Source: Prosopocoilus inquinatus (lineage: Eukaryota; Arthropoda; Insecta; Coleoptera; Lucanidae). From it: 64,000 nt of DNA. Every line of letters starts with the position of its first letter. Position 1 is the first letter of the stretch. The position numbers and the translations under genes are program-made. The notes under the pieces were generated by a model that had not been told where the DNA came from, searched no databases, and was given only the letters and a program-made list of their open reading frames with translations. Shown here one piece after another: positions 23,641 through 64,000 of this stretch. The DNA lies in NCBI GenBank assembly GCA_036172665.1, contig CM069877.1, positions 18,935,001 to 18,999,000 on the forward strand, given 5' to 3'.

Positions 23641-23687
23641 ATTCCTGGCTTCCGGTTGGAACCGCGTCTCTCCTCGAATTTCTTCTA

Positions 23688-24609: not shown

Positions 24610-25719
24610 CTACATTTTCATTTTCCTTGCCTTGACTTTAGCAAAAGTAGAAACAATATCCTTTAAATCAAGTTCTTGTGCTATCTGTTGTTCTATCGAT
24701 AATGTAGCCAACCCAACAAGTCTATCTTGGCCCATGGTAGAACGCAGGTAAGTTTTTATTAATTTTAATTTAGAAAAACTACGCTCACCACTTGCCACAG
24801 ATACAGGAAGTGTCATCAAAACCCTTAAAACAGTGACTAGATTCGGTACGCTATCCACTAATTTATTTTTACAAATGTAATTTAGAACTTCCTGCGGGGT
24901 TGTATTTATTGGCATTCTTCTTGCAATAGCTTGCAATTCACTGCATAATTCAGTACCATCAATATCCTTAGAATTCCCGTGAGTCAGAAATCCTTCCTAC
25001 TTTAAACAGTTTTCCAAAATAGTTTTGGAAGATTTATATTGCAACTCATGAACGTTATAAAGATAACCAAATACAAAATTAACCTGTTTTATTTGATTAA
25101 ACCTCTCATCAATTGCATTTATTGCGGTATCAAGAACGGCAAAATAGAAATTAATTTTGAACTGATCTTTGACATCACAGATCGGCTCATCTTCCGATTC
25201 ATAACTAAATTGCTTTTTCTTTTTTCTTAAGCGGGTTGGTTCTACCTCTGGTGCAAATGATGCGGAAATGTTAATTTCTTCAGAAATGTCTTTTGCATCC
25301 ACCAACATTTTCTCAAATCCCGAATCACTTCTGCAGCCTTCGAGAAAGGTTTTTGTTTTTAGCAGTGCATTTGTAGCAGCGATTAGATCAATTTCCTTTG
25401 ATTGAAGTAGTTTACTTGTCAAATTTATTTCGAACAAAATATTATACCACACAACAAGAGATGCAATAAATTTAAAATCAGCAATTTTTTTTGCAATCGA
25501 CTGCGCCTCAATTCGCGTTTGATTTCCAGATGGTCCCGTCAGAGTATTATTTTCGTAAATATCCATGAGTGCATCATGTACATCAGCTAGTTGATATCTT
25601 AATGGTTTCAAGGCATCAATTCGACTCTCCCATCTTGTGTCGCTCAGTGGCTTGAGAGTTAGAGTAGGGACGTGTTTCAGTAGAATTTCCCAACGCTGAG
25701 TTGAAGCAGAGAAATATAC
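24610..25719 (-). pseudogene. hAT transposase, C-terminal 370 codons
   Basis: Resumes in frame after the Gypsy insertion (QRWEILLKH, LKPLSDTRWESRIDAL) and ends with the hAT dimerisation region: LPVSVASGERSFSKLKLIK and TMGQDRLVGLATLSIE, with the conserved catalytic-side Glu in SGERSFS. One in-frame TAG (24997-24999) interrupts it; the frame continues unchanged on both sides. Stop at 24610. Together with 38636-40072 the product would be about 848 residues. Confidence 0.9.
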
Positions 25720-25723
25720 ATAT

Positions 25724-26067
25724 TGTTACGTTTCTAGGGTTTATGTTTATTTATTTAAACGAATAAAACACTCGATAAAAACTTAACCGTAATTTAATAA
25801 AGCTTAAAAACTAATTTATTTGTAACAATTTATTTTCACACTAAAATCTAACTTCGACGATCGCTGTTCGAATTCGACTGCCTCGTGAGTCAACCCGGGG
25901 CGATTTTATATCATTTGCCGCCGTCTGGAACTCTCTATGCGGGAAGATTCCAGTCTGTTCGATGTGACCCCGGTGTAGGCCCCGGTGGCGTGATGGCCGA
26001 TGACGCACAACAGCGAACCGACCTCCTGACGCCCTCAGCGTGATGCAGCACTGAGCGGCTCGCCACA
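25724..26067 (-). repeat. Gypsy LTR 1 (3' LTR of copy A)
   Basis: 344 bp, TGTTACG to CGCCACA on the plus strand. Minus-strand TATAAAA at 25904-25910 and an AATAAA-type signal near its far end. The first 33 nt, read on the minus strand, encode the last residues of Pol. Confidence 0.95.
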
Positions 26068-29000
26068 CTGCCCCCTTCTTAAAAACGTTTCGTCTCGAAA
26101 TGTTCCTGGTGATAGTCTTGAAGGAGGATGTCGGAATCTACAAGCTGGCCCATTCTTGCAATTTCCCGTCTGGAAGAAGTAGCAGTCTACGGTTTTGCTG
26201 TTGCTGACTGTTGCCTGTGGGTGATGGCTGCAGACTAGGACTTCAATTCCCGTTCTGTGGAAGATGACTTCCAGCATGCTTCGTATTACTCTCCAGTCTA
26301 GTCCGTCCAATCCGCAGCCCAATTTGGGGATGGCCAACTTCATCTGATGGTTCTCTATTAGCTGTCTCCTCAGGCTATATAGGGCTCTCCACATACTTTG
26401 ATAGTCAGGTTTACCGCTTGATGTCTTCTTAGTGACTAAATAATGCACGTGGCGCCTCCGATCTGCCGTCGAATCAATGATCTGCAAGCTCTTGCCTACC
26501 ATGGGATGCTGTCTTCGTAGCTCCTCGATTTGGCCAAATTTCTTCCTAAACACCTGAGCGATTCCTTTGGACATTTTCAGGTCTTCTGCTACGCAGTGGG
26601 CCAGACTGTACTCCAGTGGCACTTTAAAGAGATCTTGTTGCTTCTCCGTGGTCACTCCAAACCGTGCCTTGCTTCCTTCGGCGTGATGAGACATGAAGGT
26701 TTCGAAGTTCACTTCGGAAACTTGCGCCCTTTGTACTGTCCCTTCATCTGCTTCTCTATGGTAAGGGGCTATCCGGTTGAAGTGGATTACTTTGGGTTTG
26801 CCATGGGGGACCTTCTTGATGCGGTAAACGACGTCGTTGATCCGTTTCATCACTTTGTAAGGACCTTCCCAAGAGGTCTGTAATTTTGGGGAGAGGCCTC
26901 GACGTCTTTGGGGGTTATAAAGCCAGACCAGTGCTCCAGGTTGGTATCCCCCGTGTTGAGCGTTGATGTCATAGTGCTCCTTCATCCGATCGCTGGCCGT
27001 CTGTATATTGTGACGCACTTGGTTGTGGATATCATCCATTTTCCTGCGTAATTTGCTCACGTAATCTTCGTCGGCAGAGACTTCGCCAGGCTTCACACCA
27101 AACTTCAGGTCGCAGGGCAGTCTCGGCTCTCGCCCGAATACCACTTTCGCGGGAGTCTCCCCTGTTGTCTCATGAACAGATGAGCGGTATGCCATTAGAA
27201 ACAGGGGGATGTACGTGTCCCAGTCCCTCTGATGATTGGAAACGACCTTGGACAAATGTCGGTTGATGGTTCTATTGAACCTTTCCACCATTCCGTCCGA
27301 CTGTGGGTGGAGTGCAGTTGTTCTAGTTTTTCGTACGCCGAGCAGAGTACACACGTTCTTGAACAAGGCCGATTCAAAGTTCCTTCCTTGGTCTGAATGC
27401 AGTTCCATAGGTGCACCATACCGACTGATCCATTCCCTGACAAGGACTTCCGCAATAGTGACCGCCTCTTGGTTAGGTAGGGCGTAAGCTTCAACCCACT
27501 TACTAAAGTAGTCCATTACCACGACGATGTACTTGTTTCCACCATTCGTTTCTGGAAACGGGCCGGCTACATCGATGGCAACTCTCTCAAAAGGACTTCC
27601 CACGTTGTACTGTCTCATGGGAGCCTTACCCCGCCTGTGGGGGCCGTTACTGGCTGCGCAGACTGAACACTTTCTGCACCAATCCTTCACGTCTTCCTTG
27701 CAGTTCACCCAGTAAAATCTTTCGCGCACCTTCTCCATAGTCTTCTTAACTCCCAGATGCCCTCCCGAAGTTCCATCGTGAAGTTCCCTCAGAACTTCTG
27801 GCACCCTATTCTTGGGGATTAGTAACTGTGTCTTCTCTTCCATGCCTTCTGGATTCTCCATGCTTCGTCTCAGAAGACCACGATCCAACACTATGGAGTC
27901 CCACTGCGCCCAGTACGATTTTACGGACGGTGCACATGGTGCTACCTCTTCCCAGGTAGGCCTCGCGTCCCTGCTTTTCCACTCTAGCACTAATTTCAAA
28001 TCCGGGTCGTTCTCCTGGTCTCTTCGCAGTTCTTCGGCTTGCCATTTGTCGTCAACAATGGCAGTCCTCGCAGTCGTGGCTACTTTCTCGTCCAAACGAC
28101 TACAGTGCTTACAGTCTTCGGCACAGGGTCTTCTCGACAAAGCATCGGCATTTCGATGGCTAGTTCCTGCCCGATGCTGAATTTCAAAATCGTACTCCTG
28201 AAGTCGTTCGATCCATCGTGCAACTTGCCCTTCTGGGTTCTTGAAACGGAGAAGCCATTTTAGAGCGGCGTGGTCGGTCCTCAGCAGGAAGCGTCTACCA
28301 TACAAGTACTTGTAGAAGTGTTCTATCGTTTTTACGACGGCTAGCAATTCCCTTCTTGTGACGCAATAGTTTCGTTCCGGCTTTGATAGGACTTTACTGA
28401 AGTAGCCGATCACCTTCTCTTGCCCCTCTTGTATCTGGGAGAGTACGCCACCAATCCCAACGTTGCTAGCATCTGTGTCCACGACGAATTTGCCTTCCGG
28501 GAGAGGATAACTCAAAATAGGAGCACTAATCAAGTACTGCTTTAGTTGTTCAAAGCCAATTTGACACTGTTGGTCCCATTCAAATGGACGACCTTCTTCA
28601 GTGAGTTTTGTTAACGGCTTAGCAATGTCTGCAAATCCACGAACGTAGCGCCGATAGTAAGTGCACAGGCCAAGGAAACTCCTTATTTGGTGTTTATTTC
28701 TGGGAGTTGGCCAGTCTTTCACCACCTGAATCTTCACAGGGTCCACAGCGATTCCATTTCCATTAACAATGTGCCCCAGGTAATTCACTTCCTTCTGGAA
28801 CAGGTGACACTTCTTGAGGCTAAGCTTTAGTCCAGCTCCGCGAAGCCGCTGGAATACTCCTTCCAGGTTCCTTAGGTGGTCGTCGAACGTCTTTCCCACG
28901 ACAATTATGTCGTCAAGGTACACCATGCACGTTGTCCAGGACAGACCTTTCAGAACCGTCTCCATTAACCTCTCGAATGTCGCTGGGGCATTACATAATC

Positions 29001-30387
29001 CGAATGGCATCACTGTGAACTGCCACAGACCCATACCAATGGAAAACGCCGTCTTTTCTCGATCTTCGGGCGCCAGCTCCACTTGCCAATATCCACTCTT
29101 TAAGTCCAAAGTTGAGAAGATCTTTGAGCCGGCCAGGGTGTCCAGGGTATCATCAATCCGTGGCAGGGGATAGCTGTCCTTTTTGGTGACATTATTGAGT
29201 AACCGGTAGTCTACACAGAACCTGGTGGACCCATCCTTTTTCTTCACAAGCACTACTGGTGACGCCCACGGGCTGCTTGATGGTTCTATTACATTATCCT
29301 TTTCCATCTCGCGAATAATGCGTTCCGCTTCCTCACGCTTCGCCAACGGTAATCGCCTTGGAGCTTGACGGATAGGTCTTTCTTCTCCAGTCTCTATTTT
29401 GTGTTTTACATCAGTTCTTCCCTTGGATCCATTTTCTACCTCAAATACATCTTGATAGCGGCCGATCAGATTCTTTGCTTTTGTCTTCTGGTCTGGAGTC
29501 AATTCCTGGGCTGTTGACATAACCATTTCCCATAATTTCTTTGGGACTTTCGCTTCTGGCACGTTTGCTTCAAGGTGGCGGGAGATGGAGGACACCATGG
29601 TGCAGCTTCCCAAGATTGTTCCTTTCTTGATATTGACGGAGAAACAATTGACGTTCATCAGGCGGACAGGTACTTCCTTCTTCGCCGTCAACAACATTTT
29701 CCCAACGAGGACTCCTCTTCCAATCCTTTGATCATCAGTATTAGGTTCAACCATAATGACTTGCCCATCTTGAAAAACACCGTCCAGTTTTGCGTCGACG
29801 ATAACCTCAGTCCTGCTGGATAATACGTCTTCAGCGAGGACTACTCGAGCGGCCACGTCCCCTCGTTGATGTAGAACCAACTCCTCATTATTGACCACCA
29901 TCACGCCACGCTTTAAGTCCAATTGGAACCCGTGGGCACACATGACGTCCATGCCCAAAATTGCCTCGTCCTCTATATCTGCCACCAGTGCACGGTGTTT
30001 TATTGGAGTTGAACCAATGGTGATGATAACCTCTACTTCACCGTGGACAGTTGCTGATGTTCCAGTTGCAGTTTTCAGTTTCCACTTGGTCGGCTCGGTG
30101 CGTCCAGATGACTTAATGACGTCGGGTCTTAGGATGGTCTTCGTCGTACCCGTATCCAACAACATGGTGTGAGGAATGTCATCAATGGTGACATCCACGA
30201 AGACACTGCTGGTTAACTGCCGTAGGGATATTACTTGTTTGGCTTTCGTCTTTGGGGGCCTTTGAATACGGGTCGACGTTTGCCCCTCTGCACCGACCCG
30301 GCTTAGTTTAACTGTGGCTTCCTTGGATCCTGTCTGGGCTTTGGACATCGCCTGCGAACATGTCCTTCCTCCTGGCAATTCCAACAC
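26035..30387 (-). CDS. pol: Gypsy Pol with C-terminal macro domain and CCCH finger (copy A)
   Basis: An intact 1450-codon frame, entered by -1 frameshift from gag; it has no ATG of its own at the start. Domains by residue: aspartic protease with LLDTG (76-80) and ILGMDVM; RT with LPLPRIDD, the MPFGLCNAPATF block and YLDD (490-493); RNase H starting VVDTDASN (635-642); integrase with an HHCC finger (H870, H877, C904, C907) and D939, D999, E1035; a GPY/F-type module (SWEGPYKV). Then about 1255-1390 is a macro domain of the TARG1/OARD1 type: EYSLAHCVAEDLKMSKGIAQ, VTKK with K1320, and LGCGLD with D1361, the positions of the catalytic Lys and Asp of human TARG1. A C-x7-C-x5-C-x3-H finger follows (C1402, C1410, C1416, H1420). 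Pol ends 33 nt inside the LTR. Relative to copy B, one or two codons are missing near residues 188 and 327. Confidence 0.95.
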   Translation of the reverse strand: MLELPGGRTCSQAMSKAQTGSKEATVKLSRVGAEGQTSTRIQRPPKTKAKQVISLRQLTSSVFVDVTIDDIPHTMLLDTGTTKTILRPDVIKSSGRTEPTKWKLKTATGTSATVHGEVEVIITIGSTPIKHRALVADIEDEAILGMDVMCAHGFQLDLKRGVMVVNNEELVLHQRGDVAARVVLAEDVLSSRTEVIVDAKLDGVFQDGQVIMVEPNTDDQRIGRGVLVGKMLLTAKKEVPVRLMNVNCFSVNIKKGTILGSCTMVSSISRHLEANVPEAKVPKKLWEMVMSTAQELTPDQKTKAKNLIGRYQDVFEVENGSKGRTDVKHKIETGEERPIRQAPRRLPLAKREEAERIIREMEKDNVIEPSSSPWASPVVLVKKKDGSTRFCVDYRLLNNVTKKDSYPLPRIDDTLDTLAGSKIFSTLDLKSGYWQVELAPEDREKTAFSIGMGLWQFTVMPFGLCNAPATFERLMETVLKGLSWTTCMVYLDDIIVVGKTFDDHLRNLEGVFQRLRGAGLKLSLKKCHLFQKEVNYLGHIVNGNGIAVDPVKIQVVKDWPTPRNKHQIRSFLGLCTYYRRYVRGFADIAKPLTKLTEEGRPFEWDQQCQIGFEQLKQYLISAPILSYPLPEGKFVVDTDASNVGIGGVLSQIQEGQEKVIGYFSKVLSKPERNYCVTRRELLAVVKTIEHFYKYLYGRRFLLRTDHAALKWLLRFKNPEGQVARWIERLQEYDFEIQHRAGTSHRNADALSRRPCAEDCKHCSRLDEKVATTARTAIVDDKWQAEELRRDQENDPDLKLVLEWKSRDARPTWEEVAPCAPSVKSYWAQWDSIVLDRGLLRRSMENPEGMEEKTQLLIPKNRVPEVLRELHDGTSGGHLGVKKTMEKVRERFYWVNCKEDVKDWCRKCSVCAASNGPHRRGKAPMRQYNVGSPFERVAIDVAGPFPETNGGNKYIVVVMDYFSKWVEAYALPNQEAVTIAEVLVREWISRYGAPMELHSDQGRNFESALFKNVCTLLGVRKTRTTALHPQSDGMVERFNRTINRHLSKVVSNHQRDWDTYIPLFLMAYRSSVHETTGETPAKVVFGREPRLPCDLKFGVKPGEVSADEDYVSKLRRKMDDIHNQVRHNIQTASDRMKEHYDINAQHGGYQPGALVWLYNPQRRRGLSPKLQTSWEGPYKVMKRINDVVYRIKKVPHGKPKVIHFNRIAPYHREADEGTVQRAQVSEVNFETFMSHHAEGSKARFGVTTEKQQDLFKVPLEYSLAHCVAEDLKMSKGIAQVFRKKFGQIEELRRQHPMVGKSLQIIDSTADRRRHVHYLVTKKTSSGKPDYQSMWRALYSLRRQLIENHQMKLAIPKLGCGLDGLDWRVIRSMLEVIFHRTGIEVLVCSHHPQATVSNSKTVDCYFFQTGNCKNGPACRFRHPPSRLSPGTFRDETFLRRGQCGEPLSAASR
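30269..30312 (-). promoter_or_regulatory. -1 ribosomal frameshift signal between gag and pol (copy A)
   Basis: In the gag frame the codons read CAG TTA AAC TAA, so GTTAAAC (30312-30306) sits directly before the stop. A one-base slip gives GTT AAA CTA, which is the pol frame. Five nt after the heptamer a stem of 7 perfect pairs (CGGGTCG / CGACCCG, 30300-30294 with 30275-30269) closes an 18-nt loop. Heptamer, spacer and stem match the standard -1 signal. Confidence 0.85.
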
Positions 30388-31892
30388 ACCAGCGGCTTCT
30401 TCTGCTTGAAGACCTGTTCCACAATGCGGCGAACATCCTCGGCGGTGGTATACTCCCTGGGTCGCTCCTTTATAGCAGATCCCACCTTGGCGTTAGCGGA
30501 TTCTTCCTCTTCTTCCTCTTGGAAGTCCATAGCCGCTCGCACCTTGACATGCCCTCTTGAGACTCGTCTCGCCGCTTCAAATTCCAAGGCATAAGCCAAT
30601 GCGTTCTTGGACGTCTTCGGATGGGTCATTCTCAATGCCTGCTGGTTGTCTGGGTCACGGATTCCATCTATGAAGGTCTGCACCGTCAAACATTTGAGAA
30701 ATTCAACAGGAGCTGTGGGATATGCCAACTGGGCCAGACGCGCAACCTCTGCTTCGAATTCCTGAAGACTTTCTCCGGATTTCTGACAGCGATTCCTCAA
30801 CTGCGCATGGTATACCTCGGTCAGATGGGCCTGTCCGTAACGCATTTCCATCCTATTCACCAGCTTGTCGAAGTCTTCTTGTTCCTCTGGCGACATCGTC
30901 TGTAGCACATCGATAGCGTCCCCTCTCAAGGCCACAATTAACGAAGTGGCTTTTTCGCTGGCCGTCCATCTGTTTGCCTTTGCTGCTGCTTCGAACTGTT
31001 TGAAGTAGTTGGGCCAAGAAGACTTTCCATCGAACGTCGGTGGTTTTATCTTTAATTTCGAATTTTCTGCTGGTCCTTCCACAATTCGGGTTTCATTATT
31101 TTCTAGTACTTCTACTGGTGGCTGATCCCCGAACACTCGCAACCCCGCCATGATTTGTTCCAGATTTTTGATTTTGTTATCCTGCTGGAATATTATTTCT
31201 TCCACATTTTCTTGCAGGTTTCTTGTTTCTTCCGATATTTTTACCACTAGTTTATCTTCGAGTCCTTTCGTCTGTTCTAGAAATTCACCCTTCAAATTTC
31301 CGGACTGTTCTAGAAGTTTCTCGTCGAAATTTCTGGATTGCTCTAGAAATTTCTCGTCTAAGTCTCTAGATTGTTCCAACAATTTATTTTGTAATTTGTC
31401 GAAATTTCCAGATTGTTCTAGAAGCTTCTCCTCTAAATTTCTGGATTGTTCTTGAAGCTTCTGTAAATTTCCAGACTGTTCTTGAAACTTCTCGTCCAAA
31501 TTTCTGGATTGTTCTCGAAGTTCTTCCTTGAAATTTCCAGATTGTTCTAGAAGCTTATCCTCTAAATTTCTGGATTGTTCTCTAAGCTTCTCTAAATTTC
31601 CAGACTGTTCTAGAAACTTCTCGTCCAAATTTCTGGATTGTTCTCGAAGTTCGTCCTTGAAATTTCTGGATTGTTCTCGAAGTTCATCTTTCAAGATTTT
31701 ATTAAAATCGACGGGACCACACGAAATTTCAAAAAGGAAGGTCTCTGGATCTTCACCAGCTGTCAACAAATCGGATCGGAGACTCTGTTGAAGTGCACCT
31801 TTCAAACCACAGGTTTCTAACTCTCGTTCTTCCAATTCGGTTTTTAATTCGGCCACTTTTAAGTCTTTCAACAACACTTTTCTCGTAGCCAT
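30303..31892 (-). CDS. gag: Gypsy Gag with coiled-coil repeats (copy A)
   Basis: 529 residues from ATG 31892. An N-terminal alpha-helical part is followed, about residues 60-230, by many degenerate 11-18-residue repeats of the type LREQSRNLDEKFLEQSGN, predicted coiled coil. The capsid-like region starts about PPTFDGKSSWPNYFKQF and includes QTFIDGIRDPDNQQAL. A CCHC zinc knuckle (C503, C506, H511, C516) lies close to the end and would bind genomic RNA. Gag should form the cytoplasmic particle. The frame is intact. Its stop (30303-30305) lies directly after the slippery heptamer GTTAAAC. Confidence 0.95.
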   Translation of the reverse strand: MATRKVLLKDLKVAELKTELEERELETCGLKGALQQSLRSDLLTAGEDPETFLFEISCGPVDFNKILKDELREQSRNFKDELREQSRNLDEKFLEQSGNLEKLREQSRNLEDKLLEQSGNFKEELREQSRNLDEKFQEQSGNLQKLQEQSRNLEEKLLEQSGNFDKLQNKLLEQSRDLDEKFLEQSRNFDEKLLEQSGNLKGEFLEQTKGLEDKLVVKISEETRNLQENVEEIIFQQDNKIKNLEQIMAGLRVFGDQPPVEVLENNETRIVEGPAENSKLKIKPPTFDGKSSWPNYFKQFEAAAKANRWTASEKATSLIVALRGDAIDVLQTMSPEEQEDFDKLVNRMEMRYGQAHLTEVYHAQLRNRCQKSGESLQEFEAEVARLAQLAYPTAPVEFLKCLTVQTFIDGIRDPDNQQALRMTHPKTSKNALAYALEFEAARRVSRGHVKVRAAMDFQEEEEEESANAKVGSAIKERPREYTTAEDVRRIVEQVFKQKKPLVCWNCQEEGHVRRRCPKPRQDPRKPQLN

Positions 31893-31989
31893 TGTTTTTT
31901 TCCGATACTGTACTTATTTAATAATCTGATTAAATTTAATTTACTTTAAATTATTTATTTATTTGCACAAACCCGCACACCGACACCAC

Positions 31990-32333
31990 TGATACGTTTC
32001 TAGGGTTTGAGTTTATTTATTTAAACGAATAAAACACTCGATAAAAACTTAACCGTAATTTAATAAAGCTTAAAAACTAATTTATTTGTAATAATTTATT
32101 TTCACACTAAAATCTAACTTCGACGTTCGCTGTTCGAATTCGACTGACTGGTGAGTCAACCCGGGGCGATTTTATATCATTCGCCGCCGTCTGGAACTCT
32201 CTATGCGGGAAGATTCCAGTCTGTTCGATGTGACCCCGGTGTAGGCCCCGGTGGCGTGATGGCCGATGACGCACAACAGCGAACCGACCTCCTGACGCCC
32301 TCAGCGTGACGCAGCACTGAGCGGCTCGCCACA
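31990..32333 (-). repeat. Gypsy LTR 2 (shared middle LTR)
   Basis: 344 bp, TGATACG to CGCCACA; acts as 3' LTR of copy B and 5' LTR of copy A. The third base differs from the other LTRs. TATAAAA at 32170-32176 on the minus strand. Confidence 0.95.
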
Positions 32334-35300
32334 CTGCCCCCTTCTTAAAAACGTTTCGTCTCGAAATGTTCCTGGAGATAGTCTTGAAGGAGGATGTCGG
32401 AATCTACAAGCTGGCCCATTCTTGCAATTTCCCGTCTGGAAGAAGTAGCAGTCTACGGTTTTGCTGTTGCTGGCTGTTGCCTGTGGGTGATGGCTGCAGA
32501 CTAGGACTTCAATTCCCGTTCTGTGGAAGATGACTTCCAGCATGCTTCGTATTACTCTCCATTCTAGTCCATCCAATCCGCAGCCCAATTTGGGGATGGC
32601 CAACTTCATCTGATGGTTCTCTATTAGCTGTCTCCTCAGGCTGTATAGGGCTCTCCACATACTTTGATAGTCAGGTTTACCGCTTGATGTCTTCTTAGTG
32701 ACTAAATAATGCACGTGGCGCCTCCGATCTGCCGTCGAATCAATGATCTGCAAGCTCTTGCCTACCACGGGATGCTGTCTTCGTAGCTCCTCGATTTGGC
32801 CAAATTTCTTCCTAAACACCTGAGCGATTCCTTTGGACATTTTCAGGTCTTCTGCTACGCAGTGGGCCAGACTGTACTCCAGTGGCACTTTAAAGAGATC
32901 TTGTTGCTTCTCCGTGGTCACTCCAACCCGTGCCTTGCTTCCTTCGGCGTGATGAGACATGAAGGTTTCGAAGTTCACTTCGGAAACTTGCGCCCTTTGT
33001 ACTGTCCCTTCATCTGCTTCTCCATGGTAAGGGGCTATCCGGTTGAAGTGGATTACTTTGGGTTTGCCATGGGGGACCTTCCTGATGCGGTAAACGACGT
33101 CGTTGATCCGTTTCATCACTTTGTAAGGACCTTCCCAAGAGGTCTGTAATTTTGGGGAGAGGCCTCGACGTCTTTGGGGGTTATAAAGCCAGACCAGTGC
33201 TCCAGGTTGGTATCCCCCGTGTTGAGCGTTGATGTCATAGTGCTCCTTCATCCGATCGCTGGCCGTCTGTATATTGTGACGCACTTGGTTGTGGATATCA
33301 TCCATTTTCCTGCGTAATTTGCTCACGTAATCTTCGTCGGCAGAGACTTCGCCAGGCTTCACACCAAACTTCAGGTCGCAGGGCAGTCTCGGCTCTCGCC
33401 CGAATACCACTTTCGCGGGAGTCTCCCCTGTTGTCTCATGAACAGATGAGCGGTATGCCATTACAAACAGGGGGATGTACGTGTCCCAGTCCCTCTGATG
33501 ATTGGAAACGACCTTGGACAAATGTCGGTTGATGGTTCTATTGAACCTTTCCACCATTCCGTCCGACTGTGGGTGGAGTGCAGTTGTTCTAGTTTTTCGT
33601 ACGCCGAGCAGAGTACACACGTTCTTGAACAAGGCCGATTCAAAGTTCCTTCCTTGATCTGAATGCAGTTCCATAGGTGCACCATACCGACTGATCCATT
33701 CCCTGACAAGGACTTCCGCAATAGTGACTGCCTCTTGGTTAGGTAGGGCGTAAGCTTCAACCCACTTGCTAAAGTAGTCCATTACCACGACGATGTACTT
33801 GTTTCCACCATTCGTTTCTGGAAACGGGCCGGCTACATCGATGGCAACTCTCTCAAAAGGACTTCCGACGTTGTACTGTCTCATGGGAGCCTTACCCCGC
33901 CTGTGGGGACCGTTACTGGCTGCGCAGACTGTACACTTTCTGCACCAATCCTTCACGTCTTCCTTGCAGTTCACCCAGTAAAATCCTTCGCGCACCTTCT
34001 CCATAGTCTTCTTAACTCCCAGATGCCCTCCGGAAGTTCCATCGTGAAGTTCCCTCAGAACTTCTGGCACCCTATTCTTGGGGATCAGTAACTGTGTCTT
34101 CTGTTCCATGCCTTCCTGATTCTCTATGCTTCGTCTCAGAAGACCACGATCCAACACTATGGAGTCCCACTGCGCCCAGTATGATTTTACGGACGGTGCA
34201 CATGGTGCTACCTCTTCCCAGGTAGGCCTCGCGTCCCTGCTTTTCCATTCTAGCACTAATTTCAAATCTGGGTCGTTCTCCTGGTCTCTTCGCAGTTCTT
34301 CGCCTTGCCATTTGTCATCAACAATGGCTGTCCTCGCAGTCGTGGCTACTTTCTCGTCCAAACGACTACAGTGCTTACAGTCTTCGGCACAGGGTCTTCT
34401 CGACAGAGGATCGGCATTTCGATGGCTAGTTCCTGCCCGATGCTGAATTTCAAAATCGTACTCCTGAAGTCGTTCGATCCATCGTGCAACTTGCCCTTCT
34501 GGGTTCTTGAAACGGAGAAGCCATTTTAGAGCGGCGTGGTCGGTCCTCAGCAGGAAGCGTCTACCATACAAATACTTGTAGAAGTGTTCTATCGTTTTTA
34601 CGACGGCTAGCAATTCCCTTCTTGTGACGCAATAGTTTCGTTCCGGCTTTGATAGGACTTTACTGAAGTAGCCGATCACCTTCTCTTGCCCCTCTTGTAT
34701 CTGGGAGAGTACGCCACCAATCCCAACGTTGCTAGCATCTGTGTCCACGACGAACTTGCCTTCCGGGAGAGGATAACTCAGAATAGGAGCACTAACCAAG
34801 TACTGCTTTAGTTGTTCAAAGCCAATTTGACACTGTTGGTCCCATTCAAATGGACGACCTTCTTCAGTGAGTTTTGTTAACGGCTTAGCAATGTCTGCAA
34901 ATCCACGAACGTAGCGCCGATAGTAAGTGCACAGGCCAAGGAAACTCCTTATTTGGTGTTTATTTCTGGGAGTTGACCAGTCTTTCACCACCTGAATCTT
35001 CACAGGGTCCACGGCGATTCCGTTTCCATTAACAATGTGCCCCAGGTAATTCACTTCCTTCTGGAACAGGTGACACTTCTTGAGGCTAAGCTTTAGTCCA
35101 GCTCCGCGAAGCCGCTGGAACACTCCTTCCAGGTTCCTTAGGTGGTCGTCGAACGTCTTTCCCACGACAATTATGTCGTCAAGGTACACCATGCACGTTG
35201 TCCAGGACAGACCTTTCAGAACCGTCTCCATTAACCTCTCGAATGTCGCTGGGGCATTACATAACCCGAATGGCATCACTGTGAACTGCCACAGACCCAT

Positions 35301-36635
35301 ACCAATGGAAAACGCCGTCTTTTCTCGATCTTCGGGCGCCAGCTCCACTTGCCAATATCCACTCTTTAAGTCCAAAGTTGAGAAGATCTTTGAGCCGGCC
35401 AGGGTGTCCAGGGTATCATCAATCCGTGGCAAGGGATAGCTGTCCTTCTTGATGACATTATTGAGTAACCGGTAGTCTACACAGAACTTGGTGGACCCAT
35501 CCTTCTTCTTCACAAGCACTACTGGTGACGCCCACGGGCTGCTTGATGGTTCTATTACATTATCCTTTTCCATCTCGCGAATAATGCGTTCCGCTTCCTC
35601 ACGCTTCGCCAACGGTAATCGCCTTGGAGCTTGACGGATAGGTCTTTCTTCTCCAGTCTCTATTTTGTGTTTCACGACATCAGTTCTTCCCTTGGATCCA
35701 TTTTCTACCTCAAATACATCTTGATAGCGGCCGATCAGGTTCTTTGCTTTTGTCTTCTGGTCTGGAGTCAATTCCTGGGCTGTTGACATAACCATTTCCC
35801 ATAATTTCCTTGGGACTTTCGCTTCTGGCACGTTTGCTTCAAGGTGGCGGGAGATGGAGGACACCATGGTGCAGCTTCCCAAGATGGTTCCTTTCTTGAT
35901 ATTGACGGAGAAACAATTGACGTTCATCAGGCGGACAGGTACTTCCTTCTTCGCCGTCAACAACATTTTTCCAACGAGGACTCCTCTTCCAATCCTTTGA
36001 TCATCAGTATTAGGTTCAACCATAATGACTTGTTTTGCGTCGACGATAACCTCAGTCCTGCTGGGTAATACAACGTCTTCAGCGAGGACTACTCGAGCGG
36101 CCACGTCCCCTCGTTGATGTAGAACCAACTCCTCATTATTGACCGCCATCACGCCACGCTTTAAGTCCAATTGGAACCCGTGGGCACACATGACGTCCAT
36201 GCCCAAAATTGCCTCGTCCTCTATATCTGCCACCAGTGCACGGTGTTTTATTAGAGTTGAACCAATGGTGATGATAACCTCTACTTCACCGTGGACAGTT
36301 GCTGATGTTCCAGTTGCAGTTTTCAGTTTCCACTTGGTCGGCTCGGTGCGTCCGGATGACTTAATGACGTCGGGTCTTAGGATGGTCTTCGTCGCACCCG
36401 TATCCAATAACATGGTGTGAGGAATGTCATCAATGGTAACATCCACGAAGATACTGCTGGTTAACTGCCGTAGGGATATTACTTGGTTGGCTTTCGTCTT
36501 TGGGGGCCTTTGAATACGGGTCGACGTTTGCCCCTCTGCACCGACCCGGCTTAGTTTAACTGTGGCTTCCTTGGATCCTGTCTGGATTTTGGACATCGCC
36601 TGCGAACATGTCCTTCCTCCTGGCAATTCCAACAC
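32301..36635 (-). CDS. pol: Gypsy Pol with C-terminal macro domain and CCCH finger (copy B)
   Basis: 1444 codons without a stop and nearly identical to copy A, with the same order: protease (LLDTGATKT), RT (YLDD), RNase H, integrase (D, D, E kept), GPY/F-like module, macro domain (VTKK and GCGLD kept) and CCCH finger. Differences are an in-frame loss of 8 codons near residue 200, between protease and RT (DGVFQDG region), two codons present that copy A lacks, and scattered substitutions such as NADPLSRR for NADALSRR. It reads 33 nt into LTR 2. Its gag partner has a stop, so this copy may depend on another for Gag. Confidence 0.95.
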   Translation of the reverse strand: MLELPGGRTCSQAMSKIQTGSKEATVKLSRVGAEGQTSTRIQRPPKTKANQVISLRQLTSSIFVDVTIDDIPHTMLLDTGATKTILRPDVIKSSGRTEPTKWKLKTATGTSATVHGEVEVIITIGSTLIKHRALVADIEDEAILGMDVMCAHGFQLDLKRGVMAVNNEELVLHQRGDVAARVVLAEDVVLPSRTEVIVDAKQVIMVEPNTDDQRIGRGVLVGKMLLTAKKEVPVRLMNVNCFSVNIKKGTILGSCTMVSSISRHLEANVPEAKVPRKLWEMVMSTAQELTPDQKTKAKNLIGRYQDVFEVENGSKGRTDVVKHKIETGEERPIRQAPRRLPLAKREEAERIIREMEKDNVIEPSSSPWASPVVLVKKKDGSTKFCVDYRLLNNVIKKDSYPLPRIDDTLDTLAGSKIFSTLDLKSGYWQVELAPEDREKTAFSIGMGLWQFTVMPFGLCNAPATFERLMETVLKGLSWTTCMVYLDDIIVVGKTFDDHLRNLEGVFQRLRGAGLKLSLKKCHLFQKEVNYLGHIVNGNGIAVDPVKIQVVKDWSTPRNKHQIRSFLGLCTYYRRYVRGFADIAKPLTKLTEEGRPFEWDQQCQIGFEQLKQYLVSAPILSYPLPEGKFVVDTDASNVGIGGVLSQIQEGQEKVIGYFSKVLSKPERNYCVTRRELLAVVKTIEHFYKYLYGRRFLLRTDHAALKWLLRFKNPEGQVARWIERLQEYDFEIQHRAGTSHRNADPLSRRPCAEDCKHCSRLDEKVATTARTAIVDDKWQGEELRRDQENDPDLKLVLEWKSRDARPTWEEVAPCAPSVKSYWAQWDSIVLDRGLLRRSIENQEGMEQKTQLLIPKNRVPEVLRELHDGTSGGHLGVKKTMEKVREGFYWVNCKEDVKDWCRKCTVCAASNGPHRRGKAPMRQYNVGSPFERVAIDVAGPFPETNGGNKYIVVVMDYFSKWVEAYALPNQEAVTIAEVLVREWISRYGAPMELHSDQGRNFESALFKNVCTLLGVRKTRTTALHPQSDGMVERFNRTINRHLSKVVSNHQRDWDTYIPLFVMAYRSSVHETTGETPAKVVFGREPRLPCDLKFGVKPGEVSADEDYVSKLRRKMDDIHNQVRHNIQTASDRMKEHYDINAQHGGYQPGALVWLYNPQRRRGLSPKLQTSWEGPYKVMKRINDVVYRIRKVPHGKPKVIHFNRIAPYHGEADEGTVQRAQVSEVNFETFMSHHAEGSKARVGVTTEKQQDLFKVPLEYSLAHCVAEDLKMSKGIAQVFRKKFGQIEELRRQHPVVGKSLQIIDSTADRRRHVHYLVTKKTSSGKPDYQSMWRALYSLRRQLIENHQMKLAIPKLGCGLDGLEWRVIRSMLEVIFHRTGIEVLVCSHHPQATASNSKTVDCYFFQTGNCKNGPACRFRHPPSRLSPGTFRDETFLRRGQCGEPLSAASR
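32334..32346 (-). promoter_or_regulatory. Polypurine tract of copy B
   Basis: Minus strand AAGAAGGGGGCAG directly before the LTR; the same tract lies at 26068-26080 in copy A. In both copies it is inside the pol reading frame. Confidence 0.75.
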
Positions 36636-38191
36636 ACCAGCGGCTTCTTCTGCTTGAAGACCTGTTCCACAATGCGGCGAACATCCTCGGCGGTGGTATA
36701 CTCCCTGGGTCGCTCCTTTATAGCAGATCCCACCTTGGCGTTAGCGGATTCTTCCTCTTTTTCCTCTTGGAAGTCCATAGCCGCTCGCACCTTGACATGC
36801 CCTCTTGAGACTCGTCTCGCCGCTTCAAATTCCAAGGCATAAGCCAATGCGTTCTTGGATGTCTTCGGATGGGTCATTCTCAATGCCTGCTGGTTGTCTG
36901 GGTCACGGATTCCATCTATGAAAGTCTGCACCGTCAAACATTTGAGGAATTCAACAGGAGCTGTGGGATATGCCAACTGGGCCAGCCGCGCTACGTCCGC
37001 TTCGAATTCCTGAAGACTTTCTCCGGATTTCTGACAGCGATTCCTCAACTGCGCATGTTATACCTCGGTCAGATGGGCCTGTCCGTAACGCATTTCCATC
37101 CTATTCACCAGCTTGTCGAAGTCTTCTTGTTCCTCTGGCGGCATCGTCTGTAGCACATCGATAGCGTCCCCTCTCAAGGCCACAATTAACGAAGTGGCTT
37201 TTTCGCTGGCCGTCCATCTGTTCGCCTTTGCTGCCGCTTCGAACTGTTTGAAGTAGTTGGGCCAAGAAGACTTTCCATCGAACGTTGGTGGTTTTACTTT
37301 CAATTTCGAATTTTCTGTTGGTCCTTCCACAATTCGGGTTTCATTATTTTCTAGTGTTTCTACTGGTGGCTGATCCCCGAACACTCGCAACCCCGCCATG
37401 ATTTGTTCCAGATTTTTGATTTTATTATCCTGCTGGAATATTATTTCTTCCACATTTTCTTGCAAGTTCCTTGTTTCTTCCGATATTTTTACCACTAGTT
37501 GATCTTCAAGTCCTTTTGTTTGTTCTAGAAATTTCTCGTCGAAATTTCTGGATTGCTCTCGAAATTTCTCGTCTAAGTCTCTAGATTGTTCCAACAATTT
37601 ATTCTGTAATTTGTCGAAATTTCCAGCTTGTTCTAGAAGCTTCTCCTCTAAATTTCTGGATTGTTCCATTAATTTAGTTCGCAACTCGTCTTTGAAGTTT
37701 ACAGATTGTTCTCGAAGTTCGTCCTTGAAATTTCCTGATTGTTCTAGAAGTTTCTTCTCTAAATTTCCAGACTGTTCTTGAAACTTCTCGTCCAAATTTC
37801 TGGATTGTTCTCGAAGTTCGTCCTTGAAATTTCCAGATTGTTCTAGAAACTTCTCGTCCAAATTTCTGGATTGTTCTCGAAGTTCGTCCTTGAAATTTCC
37901 AGATTGTTCTCGAAGTTCGTCCTTGAAATTTCCAGATTGTTCTAGAAGCTTTTGCTCTAAATTTCTGGATTGTTCTCGAAGTTCATCTTTCAGGATTTTA
38001 TTAAAATCGGCGGGACCACACGAAATTTCGAAAAGGAAGGTCTCTGGATCTTCGCCAGCTGTCAACAAATCGGATCGGAGACGCTGTTGAAGTGCGCCTT
38101 TCAAACCACAGGTTTCTAACTCTCGTTCTTCCAATTCGGTTTTTAATTCGGCCACTTTTAAGTCTTTCAACAACACTTTTCTCGTAGCCAT
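36551..38191 (-). pseudogene. gag: Gypsy Gag with one nonsense codon (copy B)
   Basis: From ATG 38191 the frame matches copy A but is stopped by TAA at 37058-37060, where copy A has TAC (Tyr); 165 further codons then continue in the same frame to the normal stop at 36551. The coiled-coil repeat block (about 37530-37990) has a different number and order of units than copy A, giving a total about 14 codons longer. The zinc knuckle (CWNCQEEGHVRRRC) and the GTTAAAC-TAA shift site (36560-36551) are kept. Confidence 0.92.
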
Positions 38192-38273
38192 TGTTTTTTT
38201 TTTCTGATACTGTACTTATTTAATAATCTGATTAAATTTAATTTACTTTAAATTGTTTATTTATTTGCACAAA

Positions 38274-38290
38274 CCCGCACACCGACACCA
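38274..38290 (-). promoter_or_regulatory. Primer binding site of copy B
   Basis: One base inside the LTR end, the minus strand reads TGGTGTCGGTGTGCGGG, starting with TGG as required to pair with a tRNA CCA end. TGGTGTC is seen in tRNA-Leu primer sites, but the rest does not fit well, so the tRNA is not identified. Copy A has the same string next to LTR 2. Confidence 0.6.
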
Positions 38291-38291
38291 C

Positions 38292-38635
38292 TGTTACGTT
38301 TCTAGGGTTTGAGTTTATTTATTTAAACGAATAAAACACTCGATAAAAACTTAACCGTAATTTAATAAAGCTTAAAAACTAATTTATTTGTAATAATTTA
38401 TTTTCACACTAAAATCTAACTTCGACGTTCGCTGTTCGAATTCGACTGACTGGTGAGTCAACCCGGGGCGATTTTATATCATTCGCCGCCGTCTGGAACT
38501 CTCTATGCGGGAAGATTCCAGTCTGTTCGATGTGACCCCGGTGTAGGCCCCGGTGGCGTGATGGCCGATGACGCACAACAGCGAACCGACCTCCTGACGC
38601 CCTCAGCGTGACGCAGCACTGAGCGGCTCGCCACA
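38292..38635 (-). repeat. Gypsy LTR 3 (5' LTR of copy B)
   Basis: 344 bp, TGTTACG to CGCCACA, directly followed by ATAT and then hAT coding sequence. Confidence 0.95.
38472..38478 (-). promoter_or_regulatory. TATA box of the 5' LTR promoter
   Basis: Minus strand TATAAAA about 160 nt into LTR 3, with AATAAA-type strings about 155 nt downstream (38314-38319), the spacing expected for promoter and poly(A) signal in an LTR. Confidence 0.6.
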
Positions 38636-40072
38636 ATATAAATTTTGAACCAAATTGAAAAAAGATGTAGCTGATAGACAACATTTAGCTGCATCATTTA
38701 CCACAAGATTTAGTGTATGAGAACTGCAGGGTACGAAAAAAGCTCGTGGATTTATTTCTAAAATTCTTTTTTGAACACCACTGTTTTTACCTTTCATGTT
38801 ACTCCCATTATCATAACCTTGACCACGTAAATTTTCTATTGGGAGTGACATCTCTGCTAACTTACCAAGAATTGTTTCAGTTATTCCAGCGCCTGTTGTA
38901 TCGGTAAGAGGAACAAATTCCAGAAAATGTTCTTTAATTTCACTCTTACATTCTCCAAAATCAGTCGTGATGTTTACAAATCGAACGATTATTGTCATTT
39001 GTTCTACATGACTAACATCTGGTGTGCAATCTAAGATTATTGAAAAATATTTAGCAGAGAGAACTGAAGCAATTATTTTTTCCTGAACAGCATGAGACAG
39101 CAGATTGATCAATTCGTTTTGAATATTTTTTCCGAGATAATGAATGTGAATCTCTTTATCACGAACTTTTCGAAGATGTTCGTGCATAATAGGATCAAAA
39201 AAAGCTAGATATTCAACAAATTTCAGAAAATTTCCATTGTCAAACGTGAATAATTTTTCATGTAATCCACGAAATGCTAAATTTTGACTTCCCAAAACTC
39301 TTACTAATGCAATCAGTCTTTCCAGAATCTGCTGCCAGTACTTTTCTTCATCCCTTATTAAACGCAAATTTTCTTCGTCGATGGTTTTATTATTCTTCAA
39401 CCTAAGCTCTAACTCTTTCCAGTCTTGGTAGCATTTTAAGTGACTACTGCTTTTTTCGTGATTTGATAGTATCATAGAAATGTTCTTCCAGTCATTCACT
39501 CCTTTATTACATAGAGCAGATTTACCATCTGTGGGAAAAAGCTTACAACAAAAACAGAATACTACATCTTTTGATGCTGAATATTGCAAACATGGACGGG
39601 ACACACATTCTCCATTGATAAGTCGTCGTTTGTAGTGTACTATCGAAAACTTTCTACGATTAACGTCTAATGGAAAGTTGATATTTTGCACTTGATCTGG
39701 CCCATGTTCGACTAGAATTTGACGCAGACGATCCGTACATTTTTCCCACGTAGCAGGATCACTAAAGTTCAAAACAAAATCGGAAACATTTTTCTCGTTC
39801 TGTTTTTTGATTTCTTGATCTTCAGTTATACGGTGTTCTTCGGTATTCTCTATTTGTGAAACTAAAGCTGGATTTTCTGTGGCACTAGTTCCTGCATCTG
39901 CTTGGTGATCATATAATTCTTCTGGAAAATCATTTGCATTCTTATCAGTTTCTTGAGGATGTGGACGCAGAAACTTCAAGAATGATCCTGCTTGCTTTGC
40001 TAACGATAATTCTTTCTCTAATTTTCTTTTACGAAACTGTGCCCCAGATAGTTTTCTTCTATCATCTGCCAT
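38636..40072 (-). pseudogene. hAT transposase, N-terminal 479 codons
   Basis: Starts at ATG 40072 (MADDRRKLSGAQFRKRK). It has an acidic linker, a TTF-type zinc finger with Cys/His pairs (CLQYSASKDVVFCFCCKLF and NHEKSSSHLKCY, about residues 155-215), then the DUF4371/RNase H-like catalytic core: FSIILDCTPDVSH with the first Asp and RGQGYDNGSNMKG with the second. It resembles the transposases that gave rise to vertebrate ZMYM1-like proteins. It is interrupted after codon 479 by the Gypsy array at ATAT; without that the frame runs straight on. The enzyme would cut and paste the element in the nucleus. Confidence 0.92.
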
Positions 40073-60375: not shown

Positions 60376-60603
60376 TTAATGCATTAGGTAAACAGTTATA
60401 CCAAATTTCATCAAAAACCAAATGTGTGAAAAATAGTTTTTCTCGATTTCTAAACAATCGAATCAAAAGAGCTTAAGTCATTTTACCTTAAACTTCGTGG
60501 TCTAGAATGACAAGCTGCGGTCATTCAAACCTCAATCTTTGGTATGTGCACTGCCATGGCCAGCGATATTGGAATTGCTACCTGTAGCATCGCTGCTTGA
60601 TAT

Positions 60604-60928
60604 TGTTATGTTTCTAGGGTTTAAATTAATTTATTTAATTGAATAAAACACTCGGTAAAAACTTAACCGTAATTTAATAATGCTTACAATCTAATTTATT
60701 TGTAACAATTTATTTACACACTAAATCCAACTTCGACGATCGCTATTTAGAACTCGACTGACTGCTGAGTCCACCCCAGCCGATTTTATATTCTTCGCTG
60801 CCTTCTCGTTTATTCCAACGCTGGAAAATTCGAGTTTGTTCGATGGTGGCATGGCGGCCGATGACGCATAATAACGAACCGACTTCTTGACGCCTTCAGT
60901 GTGACGTAGTGCTGAGTGGCTCGCCACA
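60604..60928 (-). repeat. Gypsy LTR of copy C
   Basis: 325 bp, TGTTATG to CGCCACA, clearly diverged and with small deletions relative to the 344-bp LTRs of the array. Followed on the inside by the CTGCCCCCTTCTT purine-tract complement. Confidence 0.92.
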
Positions 60929-63900
60929 CTGCCCCCTTCTTAAAAACGTTTCGTCTCGAAATGTTCCTGGTGATAGTCTTGAAGGAGGATGTTGGAATCT
61001 ACATGCTGGCCCATTTTTGCAATTTCCCGTCTGGAAGAAGTAGTAGCCTGCGGTTTTATGTTGCTGACTGTTGCCTGTGGGTGGTGGCTGCAGACTAGGA
61101 CTTCAATTCCCGTTCTGTGGAAGATGACTTCCAGCATGCTTCGAATTACTCTCCAGTCTAGTCCGTCCAATCCGCAACCCAATTTGGGGATGGCTAACTT
61201 CCTCTGGCGGTTCTCTATTAGCTGTCTCCTCAGGCTATATAGGGCTCTCCACATACTTTGATAGTCAGGTTTACCAATTGATGTCTTCTTAATGACTAAA
61301 TAATGCACGTGGCGCCTCCGATCTGCCGTCGAATTGATGATCTGCAGACTCTTGCCTACCACGGGATGCTGTCTTCGGAGCTCCTCGATTTCTTCAAATT
61401 TCTTCCTAAACACCTGAGCGATTCCTTTGGACATCTTCAGGTCTTCTGCTACGCAGTGGGCCAGACTGTACTCCAGTGGCATCTTGTTGCTTCTCCGTGG
61501 TCACTCCAAATCGTGCCTTACTTCCCTCAGCGTGCTGAGACATGAAGGTTTCGAAGTTCACTTCGGAAACTTGCGCCCTTTGTACTGTTCCTTCATCTGC
61601 TTCGCCATGGTAAGGGGCTATCCGGTTGAAGTGGATTACTTTGGGTTTGCCATGGGGGACCTTCTTGATGCGGTAAACGACGTCGTTTACACAGGCGCAT
61701 TAAATAATTGAGACATATCGTTGAATTTGGGTTGTTATTATAACATTTAAATAAAACTTTACTTATCATAAAAGTATCATGTTCAAACAATATTATGTAA
61801 TATTTCATCCAGTGCTTTAAAGTTATTTCGATATTTTCAATAAATGTTATTATTCTGTTATCTAGTAACATTACGTTGGTGTTTCATAACATTCCACATA
61901 CCATTTGTAATATTCTATCAACATTTTGTTCAAAATGTTGCTGTGTTGTTGTGTTGAAAATGTTTCAGAAATGCTACGTAACATTCTATGCTTAGTGGGT
62001 AGCATCTGTGTCCACGACAAACTTGCCTTCCGGGAGAGTATAACTCAGAATAGGAGCACTAACCAAGTACTGCTTTAGTTGTTCAAAACCAATTTGACAC
62101 TGTTGGTCCCATTCAAATGGACGACCTTCTTCAGTGAGTTTTGTCAACGGATTAGCAATGTCAGCAAATCCAGGAACGTAGTGTCGTGTCTGCAAATCCA
62201 GGAACGTAGTGCCGATAGTAAGTGCACAGGCTAAGGAAACTCCTTCCTTCCTTCCTCCTTTGGTGTTTATTTCTGGGAGTTGGCCAGTCTTTCACCACCT
62301 GAATCTTCACAGGATCCACGGCGATTCCATTTCCATTAACAATGTGCCCCAGGTAATTCACTTCCTTCTGGAACAGGTGGCACTTCTTGAGGCTAAGCTT
62401 TAGTCCAGCTCCGCGAAGCCTCTCCTTCCAGGTTCCTCAGGTGGTCGTCGAACGTTTTTCCCACGACAATTATGTCGTCAAGGTACTCCATGCACGTTGT
62501 CCAGGACAGACCTTTCAGAACCGTTTCCATTAACCTCTCGAATGTCGCTGGGGCATTACATAACCCGAATGGCATCACTGTGACCTGCTACAGACCCATA
62601 CCAATGGAAAATGCCGTCTTTTCTCGATCTTCAGGAGCCAGCTCCACTTGCCAATATCCACTCTTTAAGTCCAAAGTTGAGAAGATCTTTGAGCCGGCCA
62701 GGGTGTCCAGGGTGTCATCAATCCGTGGCAGGGGATAGCTGTCCTTCTTGGTGACATTGTTGAGTAACCGGTGGTCTACACAGAACCTTGTGGACCCATC
62801 CTTCTTCTTCACTAGCACTACTGGTGACGCCCAAGGGCTGCTCGATGGTTCTATTACATTATCCTTTTCCATCTCGCGAATAATGCGTTCCGCTTCCTCA
62901 CACTTCGCCAATGGTAATCGCCTTGGAGCTTGACGGATAGGTCTTTCTTCTCCAGTCTCTATTTTGTGTTTCACGACATCAGTTCTTCCCTTGGATCCAT
63001 TTTCTACCTCGAATACGTCTTGATAGCGGCCGATCAGATTCTTTGCTTTTGTCTTGTGGTCTGGAGTTAATTCCTGGGCTGTTGACATAACCATTTTCCA
63101 TAATTTCGTTGGGACATTTGCTTCTGGCACGTTTGCTTCATGTTGGCGGGAGATGGAGGACACCATGGTGCAGCTTCCCAAGATTGTTCCTTTCTTGATA
63201 TTGACAGAGAAACAATTGACGTTCATCAGGCGGACAGGTACTTCCTTCTTCGCCGTCAACAACATTTTCCCAACGAGGACTCCTCTTCCAATCCTTTGAT
63301 CATCAGTATTAGGTTCAACCATAATGACTTGCCCATCTTGAAAAACACCGTCCAGTTTTGCGTCGACGATAACCTCAGTCCTGCTGGATAATACAATGTC
63401 TTCAGCGAGGACTACTCGAGCGGCCACGTCCCCTCGTTGATGTAGAACCAACTCCTCATTATTGACCACCATCACGCCACGCTTTAAGTCCAATTGGAAC
63501 CCGTGGGCACACATGACGTCCATGCCCAAAATTGCCTCGTCCTCTATGTCTGCCACCAGTGCACGGTGTTTTATTGGAGTTGAACCAATGGTGATGATAA
63601 CCTCTACTTCACCGTGGACAGTTGCTGATGTTCCAGTTGCAGTTTTCAGTCTCCACTTGGTCGGTTCGGTGCGTCCAGATGACTTAATGACGTCGGGTCT
63701 TAGGATGGTCTTCGTCGCATCCGTATCCAACAACATGGTGTGAGGAATGTCATCAATGGTAACATCCACGAAGACACTGCTGGTTAACTGCCGTAGGGAT
63801 ATTACTTGTTTGGCTTTCGTCTTTGGGGGCCTTTGAATACGGTCGACGTTTGCCCCTCTCCACCGACCCGGCTTAGTTTAACTGTGGCTTCCTTGGATCC
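60896..63900 (-). pseudogene. pol: Gypsy Pol remnant with macro domain (copy C)
   Basis: From upstream: protease and N-terminal RT in one long open stretch (63769-62588), in which the protease motif is DTD instead of DTG; then RT pieces in shifted frames (62578-62393, 62361-62161, 62195-61992) with YLDD kept. RNase H (after its first Asp), integrase and most of the GPY/F region are missing, replaced at about 61998-61690. The macro domain is open (from about 61482), with VIKK in place of VTKK, so the catalytic Lys remains, and GCGLD kept. A frameshift destroys the CCCH finger. No activity is expected. Confidence 0.9.
61690..61998. other. Filler sequence replacing about 1.6 kb of copy C pol
   Basis: AT-rich, with several AACATT / AATGTT strings (GTAACATTACG, CATAACATTCC, CAACATTTTG, GTAACATTCTA) on both strands. 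It may be another insertion that accompanied the deletion. No gene. Confidence 0.5.
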
Positions 63901-63914
63901 TGTCTGGGCTTTGG

Positions 63915-64000
63915 ACTTTCACGGCGTGAAAATATTACTATTTAACATAATTTATCTATATACATTTTTTTTTCGTGTCTGTGATATAACCTATAAAAGC
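63915..64000. other. Window edge, nothing recognised
   Basis: AT-rich sequence beyond the breakpoint of copy C; not part of the Gypsy family as seen in copies A and B. Confidence 0.5.

Follow-up and report, generated by a model that had tools for sequence, protein, structure and literature searches.

Locus

The stretch of DNA considered here, termed the window, comprises 64,000 nucleotides of the beetle Prosopocoilus inquinatus (C9:18935001-18999000 of the host assembly). Two head-to-tail retroelements, copies A and B, occupy positions 25724-38635 and are bounded by three 344-bp long terminal repeats (LTRs), the middle one being common to both; a third, damaged copy (C) lies further to the right. 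The elements are of the Ty3/Gypsy type, as shown by the order protease, reverse transcriptase (RT), RNase H and integrase, the LTRs and a short target-site duplication. Their Pol protein does not end with integrase, but continues into a macro domain of the TARG1/OARD1 (C6orf130) type followed by a CCCH zinc finger.

Macro domain and zinc finger at the end of Pol

Pfam domains of the copy A Pol follow the order protease, RVT_1, RNase H, Integrase_H2C2, rve, Integrase_p58_C and zf-CCCH. For the segment between integrase and finger, the best solved structure by sequence is human TARG1 (E 1.4e-29), and TARG1 is the closest of the solved macro domains by fold as well. These results bear out the original prediction, made from the letters of the window, of a TARG1-type domain and a CCCH finger fused to Gypsy Pol within a single open frame that runs on from integrase (30492-26035, minus strand, 1,485 codons). 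The motifs quoted there are all found, and copies A and B both retain the macro domain and the finger; copy C retains the macro frame and has lost the finger. The proposed interval, 26035-26640, covers the fusion but omits the first few macro residues (domain 26230-26655).

Invariant alignment columns place the lysine that matches TARG1 K84 at Pol residue 1355 of copy A (nucleotides 26428-26430), and the aspartate that matches D125, a residue with a role in TARG1 catalysis, at Pol residue 1396 (nucleotides 26305-26307). The TARG1 strand VKGDLF corresponds to EKQQDLF in the window copies. In NCBIfam the sole match of the window domain is DarG, a bacterial DNA ADP-ribosyl glycohydrolase and antitoxin (E 1.7e-11), at 44 bits against an equivalog cut-off of 250 and with only 21-23% identity; as a control, mammalian OARD1 (P0127) also matches DarG best in that database (E 2.6e-15).

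The finger of copy A scores 24.3 bits with zf-CCCH (cut-off 20.5) and has the spacing C-x7-C-x5-C-x3-H, within the pattern C-x7/8-C-x5-C-x3-H. CPSF4 fingers match it at a whole-sequence E of 4.6e-8, with no individual stretch significant alone, and the structure model of this part has a predicted local distance difference test score (pLDDT) below 50. Chance or an assembly artefact is excluded as a source of the fusion, which is found in two window copies, in many genome copies and in independent sources.

Relatives in sequence databases

With the Pol tail as query 109 proteins are found, and the beetle Aromia moschata accounts for 93. Among the other 16 are Logan, ENA and JGI contigs and, under the name of the mildew Erysiphe pulchra, two contigs whose true DNA source is uncertain; a Cylas and a Brassicogethes protein that resemble host genes and two non-Gypsy proteins complete the set. 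Copy C as query yields 16 proteins and adds members from Brassicogethes, Pyrocoelia and Macrosteles. The same fusion, sought elsewhere as had been proposed, is present in beetle and leafhopper sources. Most of the element proteins are annotated as hypothetical, and in a leafhopper as OARD1-like; insect OARD1 gene counts may therefore be inflated.

The K84-equivalent lysine is invariant in 124/124 and the D125-equivalent aspartate in 125/125 covering sequences of the 128 aligned, 96 of which are from Aromia and are not independent. The columns that we take to form the ligand pocket are 94% conserved, versus 65% elsewhere, a figure equalled by none of 20,000 random column sets; 19 spread rows with a mean identity of 57% were used, comprising one Aromia row of the 96 and leaving out B, C, P0117 and P0123. 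The domain is of the host type with both residues and the catalytic pocket retained, as predicted. Most Aromia copies (proteins P0002-P0118) have A-S-G-L-D in place of the TARG1 G-C-G-L-D, the aspartate being retained.

Finger spacing is retained in 14 of the 22 listed members, window copies included, and in 85 of the 96 Aromia proteins. P0101, P0116 and P0119 have no finger; they share one branch with P0117, whose protein stops before the finger. As a part of the fusion the finger stands for copies A and B and most members, but not for one sublineage.

Searches of Viral_contigs revealed no relative of the window tail or of the Pol alignment, and the Pol alignment also found none in Genome_contigs; the macro alignment found 18 loci in Viral_contigs. 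Among the tail matches is P0106, an RNA-virus polyprotein (methyltransferase, helicase and RNA-dependent RNA polymerase) with a TARG1-like macro domain. P0109, a non-Gypsy protein of 917 residues, also has such a domain.

Other Gypsy families and other places in Pol

Further element types were retrieved from the host genome with a Brassicogethes domain as query (20 pieces and 7 flanking pieces), and their domain order was assigned by Pfam, BLAST and a macro profile built in this analysis. The macro domain follows integrase in L063 (its RT is in L075), besides the window family. It precedes RT in L056-L060, L062 and L068-L072, with a Pfam protease upstream of it in L057, L069, L071 and L072. 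It lies between RNase H and integrase in L073, and likewise in the Logan proteins P0105 and P0108. The Pfam Macro cut-off is passed by four of eight scanned element frames (L063, L068, L069 and L071), the rest relying on the profile built here. The catalytic lysine is retained in all 22 covered element domains from the genome. Thus several insect Gypsy families bear a TARG1-type domain in Pol, at three places, and the layout of the window elements is not a lone oddity.

Copies in the host genome and selection

The host assembly (649,647,856 bases in 173 contigs) gives 1,496 first-look candidates with the tail query. Of these, 150 were scored, at 96-100% identity, and by our count 133 of the 150 have no stop in the matched stretch; seven places among them, including copy A, tie for the top score at 100%. 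Over Pol, copies A and B have a ratio of nonsynonymous to synonymous change (dN/dS) of 0.23. Between the macro domains of A and C there are 0.126 synonymous and 0.028 nonsynonymous differences per site. In A, B and 20 further copies, drawn from the 150 and all on the minus strand, the ratio computed from distinct changes per site is 0.31 for the macro domain, 0.45 for the integrase part, 0.82 for the short linker and 0.38 for the finger and end. These 22 copies have two stops, one in the macro domain and one in integrase, and all 22 retain the catalytic lysine and aspartate.

The best place for the Brassicogethes host-type domain is L049 (C5:3752904; 59%), in which positions 214-1959 contain two macro repeats across neighbouring frames. 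It groups with the Cylas and Brassicogethes proteins (support 95/93) and is probably a host OARD1-like gene.

Origin of the domain

Window-type macro domains form one clade (100/99 with 22 rows, 99/97 with 10 rows). Its sister is beetle host OARD1 (86/71) in the first tree and other element domains (89/92) in the second; the two trees thus disagree on the sister, and the tree with insect OARD1 that had been called for gives a single clade but no agreed donor. A clade of all element macro domains is not rejected (approximately unbiased test, p 0.457), nor is a tree that joins P0105 and P0108 to the window family (p 0.24-0.54).

The RT tree (22 rows) requires three changes of macro position, and its starred branches force two origins of the before-RT placement; a one-clade tree, with a single origin of that placement, is rejected (p 0.0086). 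The tree is unrooted and had already been inspected when the rejection test was made, and L055, L061, L063 (RT taken from L075), L064-L067, L073 and L074 were left out. Pfam protease calls underlie the before-RT labels of L057, L069, L071 and L072 only. As the tree holds macro-bearing elements only, gains and losses of the domain are indistinguishable. Integrase and macro trees of the window-type family share small groups (P0001 with P0004; P0067 with P0081 and P0085) and have no starred conflict; P0002 and P0032, which give no long match, were left out of the integrase tree. Placement of the domain at different Pol sites more than once, from the host or between elements, is supported. The support extends to repeated placement only and not to repeated capture from the host, since the macro tree does not reject a single capture.

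Comparison with known systems

Chromoviruses are Gypsy elements with a chromodomain behind integrase. The window family resembles them in having an extra domain C-terminal to integrase, but this is a macro domain, and the other families have it at other positions. Alphavirus nsP3 is similar in having a macro fold within a replication polyprotein. Fish endogenous retroviruses with macro-domain open reading frames have also been reported (Basta et al., 2009, as cited in PMC4977317 and PMC10499221), and these too are LTR retroelements that acquired a macro domain. According to the citing descriptions, the fish elements are Epsilon-like vertebrate retroviruses with the domain in extra open reading frames, whereas in the window elements it lies within the Pol of an insect Gypsy. 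A review of retrotransposon accessory domains names the chromodomain, exonuclease and methylases, and in the parts covered no macro domain (PMC6338049).

No report of a macro domain in Gypsy elements was found in the open-licence literature, Repbase and most subscription journals being outside the search. The layout itself, for which the original prediction knew of no standard Gypsy family, recurs in other insects. Macro uptake by LTR retroelements has a fish precedent.

Proposed role and alternatives

The explanation to which we give slightly better than even chances is that the Pol end is a captured insect ADP-ribosyl hydrolase of the TARG1/OARD1 type, kept working by selection, which may clean nucleic-acid ends or proteins of the element. 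It is put forward because of the homology and fold, the retained lysine, aspartate and pocket, purifying selection, the high recent copy number and the occurrence in several Gypsy lineages. Made as part of Pol, the macro domain would enter the particle together with RT and integrase. There it would strip ADP-ribose put by host transferases (PARP1-type, TRPT1-type) on ends of the element RNA or complementary DNA (cDNA); acidic residues of element proteins, or nearby chromatin, are alternative targets. With ADP-ribose removed, reverse transcription and integration would not be blocked. In the window family only, the finger may tether the hydrolase to RNA or DNA. An eraser carried in the particle is favoured over a targeting module tethered to integrase because the place of the domain varies yet stays within Pol. 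A constant neighbour seems to count for less than residence in Pol as such, and this points to an enzyme at work in the particle or the pre-integration complex.

Two papers report that phosphate ends, both of DNA and of RNA, are further substrates of TARG1 in vitro (PMC8501950; PMC11833690), and one of them that the K84A mutant fails to rescue cells (PMC8501950). In Drosophila without PARP-1, five of eight significantly changed mobile elements rose, and nine of ten further risers below the authors' threshold belong to the Gypsy superfamily (PMC7712786).

Several observations weigh against a captured hydrolase. Loss of PARP-1 mainly raises elements, the authors allowing for an indirect effect (PMC7712786). 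RT and integrase are better conserved than the macro domain (82% and 76% versus 58% to P0001), whose two synonymous and two nonsynonymous changes between A and B are uninformative alone. The aspartate is retained in 21 of the 22 element domains from the genome, L065:1797-3302, of the before-RT type, having asparagine instead. At E 0.01, Pfam Macro (PF01661) reports neither copy A nor copy B, and it scores 18.8 bits on copy C, below the cut-off of 22, so that of the profile matches anticipated by the original prediction only that to zf-CCCH exceeds its cut-off in the window. Pfam Macro is a general model and not a defining criterion of the TARG1/OARD1 family. It is weak on the OARD1 branch, since some OARD1-named proteins also lack the Macro mark; on P0101, a related element protein, it scores 22.3 bits.

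Perhaps the domain is instead a reader that recognises break sites or ADP-ribosylated chromatin and directs integration to them, as chromodomains do in chromoviruses. Its position behind the integrase C-terminal domain in the window family and L063, which is that of chromodomains, would suit such a function. This is unlikely, however, as the domain of other families is located ahead of RT or between RNase H and integrase, at a distance from any targeting tail, and the catalytic lysine and aspartate are retained beyond the pocket alone.

We hold it equally unlikely that the domain counters cytoplasmic modification of element RNA or proteins by antiviral mono-PARPs, a role proposed for macro domains of alphaviruses and coronaviruses. 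Arthropod RNA viruses do bear TARG1-like domains, in P0106 and in VP8 of Kadipiro virus (42% identity, viral fold search), and viruses are known to encode TARG1-like proteins, few of which have the full set of active residues (PMC4245714). On the other hand, a review reports that insect-restricted alphaviruses lost catalytic macro residues, and links this to mosquitoes being without antiviral PARPs (PMC7729036). The analogy to RNA viruses that had first been offered for the domain is weakened accordingly.

A housekeeping function on a small substrate (O-acetyl-ADP-ribose or free ADP-ribose adducts), with no role in defence, recalls the deacylation after which OARD1 was originally named; it is rather improbable, as it does not readily explain why the domain was repeatedly placed inside Pol and not in a free protein. 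That the domain is a passenger, a transduced host fragment retained by chance, is very improbable: faster evolution than RT and integrase and loss of the finger in one sublineage would agree with it, but constraint among genome copies, pocket conservation and the presence in beetle and leafhopper sources at several Pol positions do not.

The captured hydrolase may also be part of a wider pattern. We suggest, more tentatively and with the odds somewhat against it, that TARG1-type hydrolases were installed more than once in Pol of unrelated insect Gypsy lineages, from the host or between elements, in answer to a recurrent need to clear ADP-ribose from their own cDNA or RNA ends. If so, nucleic-acid ADP-ribosylation would be an unrecognised arm of insect genome defence. 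The presence of erasers at three Pol positions would in any case be evidence from nature that mobile elements are affected by ADP-ribose marks, and their different places in different families suggest that such marks have a part in the conflict of jumping genes with their hosts. The element domains would also constitute a set of enzymes for asking what such marks do to retroelement RNA, cDNA and integrase.

Element anatomy and neighbouring sequences

Features of the array and of copy C are listed in Table 1. ATAT flanks the array on both outer sides and thus represents one short target-site duplication. Of 344 LTR positions, left and middle (the pair of copy A) differ at 9, middle and right (the pair of copy B) at 1, and left and right at 8. 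From the coordinates, Gag and Pol of copy A overlap by 190 bases, with Pol in the -1 frame. Gag and Pol are both open in copy A, copy B has a single stop in Gag, and copy C is fragmented.

Table 1. Positions of element features in the window
Feature	Position	Strand	Remarks
ATAT, target-site duplication, left half	25720..25723	.	Identical four bases beyond right LTR
3' LTR, copy A	25724..26067	-	344 bp, TG...CA
Presumed polypurine tract	26068..26080	-	5' side of 3' LTR, within Pol frame
Pol, copy A	26035..30492	-	Open, 1,485 codons; open frame and Pfam
CCCH finger, copy A	26128..26184 (about)	-	Pfam zf-CCCH 24.3 bits; spacing retained
TARG1/OARD1-type macro domain, copy A	26230..26655	-	
Gag, copy A	30303..31913	-	SAP-like N-terminus, repeat region, zinc knuckle; overlaps Pol
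Middle LTR, copies A and B	31990..32333	-	
Pol, copy B	32301..36740	-	Open, 1,479 codons
CCCH finger, copy B	32388..32462	-	Pfam match, residues 1427-1451
Macro domain, copy B	32496..32921	-	Residues 1274-1415
Gag, copy B	36551..38215	-	One internal stop; abutting frames 38215-37058 and 37057-36551
5' LTR, copy B	38292..38635	-	
ATAT, target-site duplication, right half	38636..38639	.	
Copy C, damaged	60600..63916	-	Macro frame 60940-61500 without intact finger; protease-RT piece 62588-63877

Gag of copies A and B contains diverged tandem repeats (EQSRNL-like; 31272-31699 and 37517-37988), the number of which differs between the copies. A SAP domain at the Gag N-terminus scores 27.8 bits in copy B (cut-off 23.9) and is under the cut-off in copy A.

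On the right flank of the array, the frame 38603-40075 has a DUF4371 match (Pfam) and is transposase-like. The left-flank frame 24997-25725 reads as a continuation of it, but has no Pfam match; the array seems to be placed between the two halves of one transposase-like gene. Two further frames have no Pfam match and look GIY-YIG-like (23685-24428) and Gag-like (403-1059). A piece of a mariner-type transposase (Pfam Transposase_1 and DDE_3) is found at 54875-55381.
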